Source of the DNA: Bacteroidota bacterium
GTDB lineage: Bacteria; Bacteroidota; Ignavibacteria; Ignavibacteriales; Melioribacteraceae
Direction of reading: 5' to 3'
DNA: 64,000 nt
NCBI GenBank assembly: GCA_018818065.1
Contig: JAHISV010000005.1
Coordinates: forward strand, 850,527 to 914,526
Shown piece after piece: positions 21,806-25,709 of the stretch. Both the position numbers and the translations under genes were made by a program. A model generated the notes under the pieces. The model was not told where the DNA came from, ran no database searches, and worked only from the letters and a program-made list of their open reading frames with translations. Within the stretch, counting starts at the first letter, position 1; each line of letters opens with the position of its first letter.

Positions 21806-22822
21806 TCATGGCTGTCTGAAATTACCAGCTAACTCTTCCTTAGTTACAAGCTCGTGCTTCATCAACTCTCTCATGGTTATTTCTGTCATATCACTCATAA
21901 AAGCGAATTCATATCGGATATCAAGTACATAGGCTTTTAATCTCATTTTTAAGTAGGGCTTGCCATAATTTACTTCGTTTTTGAATATAACCGCGATTGG
22001 CTTATTTAAATAAACATATCTGGAGACTTGCGCAGATTGGATTGCAATATCCCTGACTTTTGCTGTATCAATATATGGTGGCAAATAAATTTCTGCAACT
22101 ACCTGGCAATTGGCTTCCCCTGAATTTGAGTTGGATAAGGCTTTCGAAATTAAATCTCCATTCGGAACACTGACAACAGAATCATCAGCAGTAACTATTC
22201 TTGTGGAACGCAGTCCAATATTTAACACTTCACCGTAATACTCCCCAATTTCAATCTTATCCCCGACCTGAAAACTACGATCGAAAATTATCATAATACC
22301 GCCGAAAATATTCTTTAATATATCTTGTGAGGCGAAACCAACGGCTAAACCCAGGGAGCCAGTAACAACAACCAGAGACTCAATAGGCGGGGCGAATATT
22401 ACTATTATCACAATGGATAAAGCAGCTGTCCAGGCAACAATTCTTACAATAGGTATGAATCCTTTTAGTGTTATTCTATATCTGGCACTCTTCTCTGAAA
22501 TTAGGGATAAAATCTTATTAATAAATTTGATGACAAAAAAACTTATAAGAAGAAAAATTATAGCCCAAATAATTTTAGCGGGAGAAAAGACATCAGACAG
22601 CTTATTTGTGATGGCTTCGTCAGGAACTATGCTCTCGATTAACTTCATACTTTCCGAAGGGGTGTCTTCGGTTTTTAGACTATCGGTTACTGTTGTTGCG
22701 GTTTTCATGGAGTCTACAACAACATTCGTACTATCAATGGTCTGGGCAACATGAATGTTTGACGAGATAATAAATGCACTTATAAACAATAAGTAATATC
22801 TATATTTTTTTAAGCTCTTCAC
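21806..22822 (-). CDS. MscS-family mechanosensitive ion channel
   Basis: 338 residues: a signal peptide, a Ser/Thr-rich periplasmic linker to about residue 78, and three membrane helices at about 84-104, 122-144 and 149-175. The pore helix SLGLAVGFASQDILKNIFGG and the MscS beta domain (FQVGDKIEIGEYYGEVLNIGLRST, VSVPNGDLIS) follow. MscS channels gate under membrane tension to release solutes on hypo-osmotic shock. It begins 10 bases after the stop of the large AAA-like gene, so the two form an operon, a pairing I do not recognise as established. Confidence 0.9.
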   Translation of the reverse strand: MKSLKKYRYYLLFISAFIISSNIHVAQTIDSTNVVVDSMKTATTVTDSLKTEDTPSESMKLIESIVPDEAITNKLSDVFSPAKIIWAIIFLLISFFVIKFINKILSLISEKSARYRITLKGFIPIVRIVAWTAALSIVIIVIFAPPIESLVVVTGSLGLAVGFASQDILKNIFGGIMIIFDRSFQVGDKIEIGEYYGEVLNIGLRSTRIVTADDSVVSVPNGDLISKALSNSNSGEANCQVVAEIYLPPYIDTAKVRDIAIQSAQVSRYVYLNKPIAVIFKNEVNYGKPYLKMRLKAYVLDIRYEFAFMSDMTEITMRELMKHELVTKEELAGNFRQP

Positions 22823-22832
22823 GTTATATATC

Positions 22833-25709
22833 CTAATGTAAAATGTTTTTGTTTTTTAGAAGATTAATAATTGGCTGATACAACTGGAAGTTTATTTTGT
22901 ACTTAGTTTTAGTCTGAAATATAATACCACTATCTTCTAAGGACATCAATAGTGATTTGCTGGCATTATGCGTGACATTAAAAATAAGAGAGTGCTCTTC
23001 TACCGTGAGTCCATCGTTAATAATCATCCCGGCTAATGAATGCAGTTTTTGTGGACGTAATAATTGCAAAAAAGAAAAATCTCTGTGCATATTTGTATTT
23101 ATCAAAATCTCATTATCTTTGAAATCACTTATTGATCTCAACCATAAAAATAGTGAGATAGCAATGTTATTAGGAGAAAGCTCTCTTATTTTTTCAAAGA
23201 ATTCATCCCCTAATATCTTTTGTTTTTCCTCTTCGTTTTTTTTGTTGAAGGATGAGTTACGAGCCAGTTCGTCCGAAAGTGAAAATTTTAACTTGTATCC
23301 ACTAATCTTATGTCTCTTCATTATAATATCCCGGATATCATCCCGAGATAGTTCAGCTAACTTTATAACAGAAGTAAAACTATCATTTATATTCAGAGTA
23401 GCATTTAAATATTTCCAGGTATAGATGTTGCAGGTTGCGATCCAGAAAATCTTTTCATTTGTCTCAGAGATTATCCTCAGAAGATTTTTGATCCCATCAA
23501 ATCCATTAACAATTTTTAAAAAGTAATCCTCAATGTTCTCAATGACAACAATTTTTCCCAATTTATATGAATTAATGCTTTCAATTAATTCATCAATACT
23601 ATTTACATCGGGCAGTTCGAAAAGACTTTTTAGCTCAGTCAGTAAGTCATCACTTTTATATACAGTTGACTCTAATTTTTTTCTTAAAACAACAAAATCT
23701 GAAAAAATTCTTCTTAGGGCTATATTTATCATAGAGGAAGTACCACTTCCTTTTTCACCCACAATTAGTATGGAAGTGGGTATGCTACTATTCCATCTTC
23801 TGAATGCCCAAGTGAATTTGGCAATTTCATCTCTGCGTCCTAAGAATAAATCTTCCTTTAAAACCGGTTCATTCTCGAATATTTTTCTATAAATATATGG
23901 TAGTTTACTTAGAGTTGATGAAACCTGTAAAAGATACTTTGATAATTCTTCGGATAACCCCAACCCTTCAGATGTAAGTCCTACCCTGCTTGAGAGTGCT
24001 ATTATTTTTTTTCTAAAACTCCCGTACTTCTTCAAAAATATCTTAACGTCTTTCACAACAAATACTTTTATTAAACTAAAGATCTCCCAGAACTTATCTT
24101 TAAGATTCTGAATCACTTTATCTTTTGAAGCCTGAATTCGAATTGAAAGAAGCTTATCAATATCTATGAAATCGGTAAGATTTCCGAGAGCTTTTTCACT
24201 TGCATTGATAAAGAGTTTTTCAAATTGATCGCCAACCTTTCTGAATCTTTTAGTAAAATCCTCGTTGCTTAGTTTAGCCCTTACCAAGCCCTCAACTGCT
24301 AATTGTCGGGATTCATCGGCTAATTCAATGTTCTCATTATAAAGTGATTCGGCAGTTTCCAGATTGAACTCAACCATGTCAGAATATGCGATTATGTCAG
24401 TGTTCAATTTAATGAGGTCATTATTGATGTTACTGGTGATTGATTCAAGTTCTTGTTTAAGCCTGTTAATCACAATAGGCGTTATTAATTCTTTTGGGGA
24501 AAACTTTGTAACATCCTTAGTCTTTAACCTGAAAACAATATCTTCCTCTTTTATGAAGGAATAATCTTTACAAAATTCCGAAAGATTGTTCTCTACAACT
24601 TCAATAAAGCTTTTTATTTTTAATGAAAAGTCATCAATAGAAAAATGGTCAACAAAATCAACAATTAACTCTGTTGTTATTTTAGACAAAAGAAAAGATT
24701 TATTTTCACCAATAGTCAACGACAAGTTTTCATTAGTACTGTTTTCTATTTTCACTCTGGAATTACTTATTAGATTATCAAGTTGACTGAAAACATTTTC
24801 CTCAAGATACTTTTCTGTTTCGAAAAATTTCTTTAACACTAAAAAATATTCATTTCTTAATCTGGCGTTGAACCAAAGTATGTCCTCCAGAAATTCAGTA
24901 GTATCAAATAATGCCAAAAAATAATTGTCAAAGTTCTGTTTAAATTCTCTCCAATTATCATCAAATTCTATATCACTTTTTTTAACTTCCTTAAAGGATA
25001 GTTTCTCAAGTAGGATCTCAGTTTTAAATTTTTCATCTGGTTTATTGGTGAGGTATTTCTCAAGATCCTCGAATATATTGCTAATAGTAGTTGGGAAATT
25101 GGACTTTAAAAGTTTTGTCGATTCCTCTAATTCAAGTAGTTTTTCGTTAATGAATGTAATTGCTTTAACGGATCTTTGGGAGAGGGCTAGTTCAGGATTT
25201 AAAGTAGTATTATTGAATTCAAGTACCAGGTCATAACATTCCAAATATTGCTTGCCTATTTTAGAGAGAAGATCTTCAAAATCGGTTAAGAGGGATTCTA
25301 GAAACCTATTATTAATATGGTAGTAGAGCAGGTTATCCCTGAATGTTTTATTTACTTCTTTATCTTTTTTTAACTCTGCTTTGGAGGGAACATCGCTTTC
25401 CTGTACCTTGAAAAGATTATTTGTTGCTAAAACAAACTGATCGAGATTAGCAATAAAACCAGAATTTGCCATCAGGTATCTTTCTTTCTGTAAAAGATTT
25501 TCAATGTTGTCATAAAATTCCGAGGTTGCTGCCCACCAATCATCATTCTCAAGAATTCCATCAACGGATTTACTCCAGGAATGAGATAGATTCTTAAGAG
25601 AAACAAAATAATTAATTCGTTCATCAAGGAATTTATTTACATGCGAATAGAATTTGTCGTCCAACAGTCCATCCACTTTCTCCTTGTACCTAACAATATT
25701 TTCTTGCAT
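22833..25709 (-). CDS. Large helical protein with a degenerate AAA-like NTPase domain
   Basis: 958 residues, no signal peptide or clear membrane helix. Residues 1 to ~600 are alpha-helical, charged and coiled-coil-like. An NTPase-like domain runs from about 620 to 860: GRRDEIAKFTWAFRRW, then SILIVGEKGSGTSSM at the P-loop, where Thr657 replaces the Walker A Lys. VVIENIEDYF lies at the Walker B place with Glu-Asn instead of Asp-Glu, and FWIATCN looks like sensor 1. The C-terminal ~80 residues (LAGMIINDGLTVEEHSLIF, LLMSLEDSGIIF) look like a winged helix. The layout recalls AAA/STAND-type regulators, but catalysis may be lost. Downstream partner is the MscS channel. Confidence 0.7.
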   Translation of the reverse strand: MQENIVRYKEKVDGLLDDKFYSHVNKFLDERINYFVSLKNLSHSWSKSVDGILENDDWWAATSEFYDNIENLLQKERYLMANSGFIANLDQFVLATNNLFKVQESDVPSKAELKKDKEVNKTFRDNLLYYHINNRFLESLLTDFEDLLSKIGKQYLECYDLVLEFNNTTLNPELALSQRSVKAITFINEKLLELEESTKLLKSNFPTTISNIFEDLEKYLTNKPDEKFKTEILLEKLSFKEVKKSDIEFDDNWREFKQNFDNYFLALFDTTEFLEDILWFNARLRNEYFLVLKKFFETEKYLEENVFSQLDNLISNSRVKIENSTNENLSLTIGENKSFLLSKITTELIVDFVDHFSIDDFSLKIKSFIEVVENNLSEFCKDYSFIKEEDIVFRLKTKDVTKFSPKELITPIVINRLKQELESITSNINNDLIKLNTDIIAYSDMVEFNLETAESLYNENIELADESRQLAVEGLVRAKLSNEDFTKRFRKVGDQFEKLFINASEKALGNLTDFIDIDKLLSIRIQASKDKVIQNLKDKFWEIFSLIKVFVVKDVKIFLKKYGSFRKKIIALSSRVGLTSEGLGLSEELSKYLLQVSSTLSKLPYIYRKIFENEPVLKEDLFLGRRDEIAKFTWAFRRWNSSIPTSILIVGEKGSGTSSMINIALRRIFSDFVVLRKKLESTVYKSDDLLTELKSLFELPDVNSIDELIESINSYKLGKIVVIENIEDYFLKIVNGFDGIKNLLRIISETNEKIFWIATCNIYTWKYLNATLNINDSFTSVIKLAELSRDDIRDIIMKRHKISGYKLKFSLSDELARNSSFNKKNEEEKQKILGDEFFEKIRELSPNNIAISLFLWLRSISDFKDNEILINTNMHRDFSFLQLLRPQKLHSLAGMIINDGLTVEEHSLIFNVTHNASKSLLMSLEDSGIIFQTKTKYKINFQLYQPIINLLKNKNILH

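Follow-up and report, generated by a model that had tools for sequence, protein, structure and literature searches.

The AAA+ gene and its MscS neighbour

The window analysed here, a 64,000-nucleotide stretch of a Bacteroidota genome (Melioribacteraceae; contig JAHISV010000005.1, positions 850,527 to 914,526), carries a gene for a 958-amino-acid AAA+ protein and, 10 bp downstream on the same strand, a gene for a mechanosensitive channel of the MscS family. That the two are genetic partners is near certain, as an MscS gene adjoins the AAA+ gene in 128 of 135 distinct homologous loci. With a probability of roughly 0.6, we interpret the AAA+ protein as a dedicated partner that controls or couples the osmotic channel of one MscS subfamily in ion and turgor homeostasis and that acts as a pseudo-ATPase in the clade of the window. 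Both open reading frames and the short gap between them had been described correctly in a first-pass annotation of the window, and the test that it proposed, whether MscS is a constant neighbour, came out positive, the reverse of a family in which most homologues lack the channel. Spacing and conserved adjacency suggest that the two genes form an operon; scans for promoters and terminators at the locus gave background-level or weak signals.

Homologues were collected with the AAA+ protein as the only query; MscS was never used for searching. They come from three phyla and were found in 15 of 58 relatives, as strong matches in approximately 72 of 395 genomes of the window's phylum, in 14 of 299 genomes of the phylum of Gallionella and in 37 of 113 genomes of the phylum of a deltaproteobacterial metagenome-assembled genome (MAG). 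Further copies were taken from Ignavibacteria, Balneolaceae, a Flavobacteriales MAG, a Bacteroidales MAG, Splendidivirga, Alcanivorax, Gallionella and the deltaproteobacterial MAG. Their lengths range from about 300 to 2000 amino acids, so that 'giant', as the window protein had been called, is an overstatement.

A channel gene was counted as adjacent when a match to the MscS profile lay within 800 bp on the same strand in a six-frame test, because open reading frame calls miss some MscS genes in high-GC loci. Four of the seven exceptions (L113, L114, L117 and L154) reach a contig end, and in L218 the MscS gene is displaced 3.6 kb downstream; the other two are weighed below. With five MscS genes in the 3.95-Mb genome, adjacency would be expected by chance in well under 1% of the copies, compared with approximately 95–98% observed. 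In the f40 and f42 families and their relatives, MscS lies upstream instead of downstream of the AAA+ gene, which corresponds to one change on our tree, a quick maximum-likelihood tree with some long branches. The MscS side was thus switched once and the pair was kept, which supports a lasting partnership. Annotation by the Prokaryotic Genome Annotation Pipeline independently shows the pair on plasmids of Caulobacter and Novosphingobium, as 'ATP-binding protein' or 'AAA family ATPase' together with 'mechanosensitive ion channel'. Such labels are all that annotations offer for the AAA+ family, which has no name in Pfam or NCBIfam.

On the 104-kb plasmid of Caulobacter sp. NIBR2454 (L238, 5212-9634), the pair and a second MscS gene are located near conjugation genes, and the module can thus be plasmid-borne.

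The partner channels form a subfamily with a C-terminal motif

The window channel exceeds the Pfam cut-off for MS_channel_2nd (PF00924, 5.5e-20). Its N-terminus has a signal-peptide-like start followed by an S/T/D-rich stretch ahead of the first transmembrane segment, in agreement with the Ser/Thr-rich extension noted before. When a profile of the partner channels (A5) was run over 395 genomes, scores were bimodal: 64 genomes reached at least 272 bits, and all others stayed at or below 130 bits. The AAA+ gene was present in every one of these 64 genomes. Conversely, only eight genomes with the AAA+ gene were without an A5-class MscS, and in all of them the AAA+ protein is fused to a transporter or to transmembrane domains and has a divergent MscS neighbour.

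The A5 profile matches solved MscS, MscK and MscM at 3e-23 to 1e-19 from the first transmembrane helix (TM1) into the vestibule; the alignment to solved MscS stops ahead of the final ~40 residues, and the window channel has no match to MS_channel_3rd (PF21082). These last ~40 residues hold the motif K-x-Y-x-x-D-x-x-x-E, which occurs in 97 of 106 partners of the unfused types described below and also in the displaced partner of L218. One loose match was seen among approximately 12 unpartnered MscS proteins, some 'non-partners' of this count being partners that recur in a second collection, and the motif was not found in the MscS paralogues of the window genome itself. The pore helix TM3 shows Gly/Ala packing (GSLGLAVGFASQD in the window), with a mean of 6.7 small residues of 12 in type A.

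Recurring clusters in which the partner MscS is followed by a second, ordinary MscS and CorA were observed in L129, L157, L021 and L024.

The AAA+ protein is predicted to have an ORC/Cdc6-like fold

The full-length AlphaFold2 model, based on a 23-row alignment, reached a mean pLDDT (per-residue confidence) of 80.4 and a pTM (global confidence) of 0.61. In this model, a long all-helical arm ends near residue 575 and is followed by the alpha/beta core with the P-loop, by a helical lid and, at the C-terminus, by a winged helix; the AAA+/winged-helix part modelled alone gave a pLDDT of 87.2 and a pTM of 0.85. The predicted structure, an AAA+ fold followed by a winged helix behind the arm, bears out the first-pass view of a helical protein with a P-loop domain and a winged-helix-like end. 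No transmembrane segment was detected in the protein with a simple hydropathy window, the method used for transmembrane counts throughout.

Comparison with the AAA, STAND and Orc/Cdc6 folds, as proposed in the first pass, placed the ORC/Cdc6-like fold first. In a Foldseek search of the PDB, the AAA+/winged-helix part matched Cdc6/ORC1 best (1.3e-9), followed by RuvB, the archaeal Walker ATPase 2qen and Apaf-1, and the search with the full-length model was consistent with this result. At TM-scores (template modelling scores) of 0.4–0.5, the modelled likeness is one of fold class and does not imply close homology. Cdc6 was again the top match, at only 2e-4, when PDB sequences were searched with a profile, and phmmer with the 958-residue sequence against PDB chains gave no match. 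Foldseek against viral models recovered generic AAA+ proteins only. No Pfam family was matched above its curated cut-off; AAA_16 and nSTAND1 remained subthreshold (nSTAND1 0.003, 17.7 bits at a cut-off of 27.1), and Pfam, NCBIfam and PADLOC yielded no name for the protein. The AAA_22 cut-off was reached by homologues in Alcanivorax, Gallionella and Splendidivirga. Superstructure-forming repeats, as at the C-terminus of STAND proteins, were not found, the protein terminating in its winged helix. Across the family this domain is near neutral, with a mean net charge of -1.2 to +1.5 by architecture type.

The Walker A lysine is lost throughout the clade of the window

The letters reported for the P-loop and Walker B of the window protein were confirmed (Table 1). 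The Walker A Lys is absent from all eight stand-alone copies of Ignavibacteria, which have T, T, T, I, A, A, N and A at this position, and from two Flavobacteriales/Bacteroidia MAG copies (L129 and L157, GEKGSGTSS in both). It is also absent from the clade with upstream MscS (R, M, A, V) and from a gammaproteobacterial-type clade (T, A, S). Nearly all Balneolaceae, the antiporter fusions except one, all three SLC12 fusions and many transmembrane forms have kept it. The protein had been called degenerate, which describes the clade well and does not extend to the wider family, whose members mostly bear Lys. On a tree built without the Walker A columns, Lys status changed at least 12 times. Judged from these sequences, nucleotide binding is dispensable and the MscS partner is not.

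Only 5 of 115 family members have Glu as the second acid of Walker B (DE or EE), and the VVIEN of the window departs from the hhhhDE pattern. Even the copies that retain Lys would therefore seem to be binders or switches more than fast ATPases. With the Walker A Lys gone from its clade, the window copy is probably a pseudo-ATPase that serves as a nucleotide-independent scaffold.

The arm is shared with fusions to cation transporters

The homologues fall into several architectures. Type A has a soluble arm and the AAA+/winged-helix part (the window, Balneolaceae and others), and type S (Balneola) has the latter nearly alone, its count including a few genes cut by contig ends. Type B proteins (~1500 amino acids) combine a Na+/H+ exchanger (PF00999), the arm and the AAA+/winged-helix part and occur with MscS; in Ignavibacteria, MscS is then followed by TrkH and TrkA, and a gene for a nameless 414-amino-acid protein lies upstream. 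Type C (~1700 amino acids) joins AA_permease/SLC12 to the AAA+/winged-helix part and occurs with a short MscS-like gene. Type D, in the proteobacterial phyla, has a signal peptide, a periplasmic coiled coil and several transmembrane helices ahead of the AAA+/winged-helix part.

A hidden Markov model of the stand-alone arm matched the linker between antiporter and AAA+ part below 1e-5 in 14 of 20 antiporter fusions (best 3.8e-17) and also matched one SLC12 fusion (8e-15). The window protein is thus a fusion protein minus its transporter. CorA is a neighbour of some stand-alone copies. It comes after MscS in L020, L021, L022 and L024, four loci of Ignavibacteria, and behind a second MscS in two loci of Flavobacteriales/Bacteroidia MAGs. 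Together, the fused transporters and the TrkH, TrkA and CorA neighbours point to a role in ion and turgor homeostasis, which lends weight to the osmotic or tension response considered in the first pass.

Further variants were observed among the loci. In Balneola-type copies (L080-L082, L084, L097 and L134-L137) the arm is lost, and the ~430 amino acids of AAA+/winged helix beside MscS may represent the minimal working pair. A protein of ~414 amino acids is encoded directly upstream of the antiporter–AAA+ fusion wherever the DNA extends that far (L025:12688-13956, L026:12380-13624, L030:5727-6971); it has no Pfam match, in many copies weakly resembles the antiporter profile and is possibly a split antiporter-like subunit. 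The SLC12/amino-acid-permease-like fusions that include the arm (L032:8533-13644, L033:7983-13070, L108) are followed by a short MscS-like gene, whose pore helix is degraded. The build of type D (L156:7117-9936, L158:6964-10068, L159:1870-5493) recalls MscK and MscM, yet MscS is a separate gene. A 1465-amino-acid homologue (L100:7062-11459) with a Pfam-nameless N-terminal region of several transmembrane segments, located beside TrkA-like and 414-amino-acid-family genes, is perhaps a further transporter fusion.

Table 1. Features of the AAA+/MscS locus (positions in the window)
Feature	Positions	Strand	Basis
Gene of the MscS-partner AAA+ protein, 958 amino acids	22833-25709	-	Open reading frame; homologue searches
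Gene of the partner MscS channel, 338 amino acids	21806-22822	-	Open reading frame; Pfam; profile matches to solved MscS
All-helical arm, residues 1-575	23985-25709	-	Structure model; arm hidden Markov model
Predicted ORC/Cdc6-like AAA+ core with lid, ~residues 605-845	23175-23897	-	Model; Foldseek
Walker A position GEKGSGTSS (651-659), Thr657 replacing Lys	23733-23759	-	
Walker B VVIEN (721-725; E724), second catalytic acid absent	23535-23549	-	
Predicted C-terminal winged helix, ~residues 878-958, last residues LLKNKNILH	22836-23078	-	Model; near-neutral charge across the family
Canonical small-residue stretch GSLGLAVGFASQD (155-167) of the MscS pore helix TM3	22322-22360	-	
KAYVLDIRYE (296-305), C-terminal MscS motif that marks the partner subfamily; candidate docking site	21908-21937	-	

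A proposed two-protein module and its alternatives

The two genes would encode an obligate two-protein module, with the AAA+ protein as cytoplasmic partner of one MscS subfamily. Its AAA+/winged-helix end most probably docks on the cytoplasmic vestibule of the channel, whose C-terminal part is partner-specific, and would set the timing or duration of channel opening (gating or adaptation). The helical arm would extend to the membrane or to ion transporters, being fused to a Na+/H+ antiporter or an SLC12-type permease in paralogues, and channel state and cation transport could be tuned jointly for osmotic and ion homeostasis. The data show the partnership, the arm common to both kinds of protein, the predicted fold and the loss of Lys across the clade; physical binding, gating control and the direction of the signal are steps that we infer. 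A broader proposal goes further: a new modular class of osmoregulatory machine in at least three phyla, in which an ORC/Cdc6-like AAA+/winged-helix switch, often a pseudo-ATPase, is the obligate gate-keeper of its own MscS subfamily and links the channel physically to exchangeable cation transporters (Na+/H+ antiporter or SLC12-type permease). We regard it as tentative, at somewhat less than even odds.

Several observations weigh against a dedicated controller of the channel. Adjacency and co-occurrence fall short of proving contact, and the copies share phylogeny, so that their counts are not counts of independent events. The antiporter fusion L228 has no MscS nearby, and none was detected at the weak homologue L120. 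The C-terminal motif is found in 0 of 22 MscS proteins beside the antiporter- and SLC12-fused types, and the pore helix of type B and C channels has ~3.6 small residues of 12, compared with 6.7 in type A. The type B and C proteins may be non-conducting subunits, and with motif and pore residues lost in the fused types, the assumption of a single shared gating mechanism may fail.

An obligate 1:1 pairing with a specific channel subfamily and an AAA+ fold would also be expected of an assembly, insertion or quality-control factor that serves its own MscS and has no part in gating. An ATP-driven chaperone, however, fits poorly with the antiporter and SLC12 fusions and with Walker A Lys loss in many lineages, and we consider this explanation unlikely. 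The signal might instead run the other way, with the channel as sensor and the AAA+/winged-helix protein as output, for example as a membrane-tethered transcription regulator that responds to tension. The winged helix behind an ORC/Cdc6-like AAA+ domain is in line with such an output; we nevertheless downgraded a DNA-binding role because this domain is near neutral, though charge alone does not settle DNA binding, and many copies are anchored in the membrane via transporter or transmembrane domains. On balance, a transcriptional output seems quite unlikely.

The first pass had also considered a defence or abortive-infection system with MscS as killing effector, an idea prompted by a switch-like ATPase domain beside a pore and in keeping with the subthreshold nSTAND1 match and a marginal PADLOC match (mads_8, 6e-4) of one Balneolaceae copy. 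PADLOC gave no match for the window pair, however, and no homologue was found in the phage collection searched. The syntenic context is conserved in Balneolaceae, in neighbourhoods of a housekeeping type, and the fusions to ion transporters and the TrkH, TrkA and CorA neighbours do not suit an effector of killing; we therefore hold this explanation to be very improbable. That an ordinary ATPase acquired a local Thr in Walker A next to an MscS gene by coincidence would agree with the Lys of many family members. Both parts were rejected, the local mutation by the Lys loss in the eight Ignavibacteria and two MAG copies and the chance neighbour by the adjacency rate, leaving this explanation a negligible probability.

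Comparison with known systems

Channels of the MscS family are usually viewed as self-contained tension-gated valves. If the proposed control of the channel by its AAA+ partner is true, many such channels in bacteria, a large class, would depend on a cytoplasmic switch of their own that links turgor release to cation transport. The repeated loss of Lys under a persisting partnership is a natural experiment on the AAA+ fold without ATP. A description of the family was not found in the open-access papers searched, and its novelty is thus provisional.

The partner channel resembles MscS, YnaI, MscK and MscM (PDB 7dlu, 7uw5) from TM1 to the vestibule, including canonical TM3 packing. It differs by its own C-terminal motif, KAYVLDxRYE, and by its obligate AAA+ partner; to our knowledge, no such partner has been described for MscS. 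With ORC1/Cdc6 proteins (PDB 7tji, 2qby, 2v1u) the AAA+ protein has the AAA+ core and the C-terminal winged helix in common. However, identity is ~12%, the Walker A Lys is absent in the clade of the window, the second Walker B acid is almost always missing and the winged helix is near neutral, and the family is genetically linked to a channel instead of replication. STAND and nSTAND NTPases and archaeal Walker-type ATPases (PF20703; PDB 2fna, 2qen; Apaf-1, 3shf) give similar fold matches and have a Walker B without DE, whereas the family described here has no C-terminal repeat superstructure, carries its helical arm at the N-terminus and does not reach the curated cut-off. In the Kef–KefF/G, TrkH–TrkA and KtrB–KtrA systems, a cytosolic KTN/RCK or flavodoxin-like subunit controls a membrane ion path. 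Here the partner is instead an AAA+/winged-helix protein, and the gene clusters of its fused paralogues contain TrkH and TrkA themselves.

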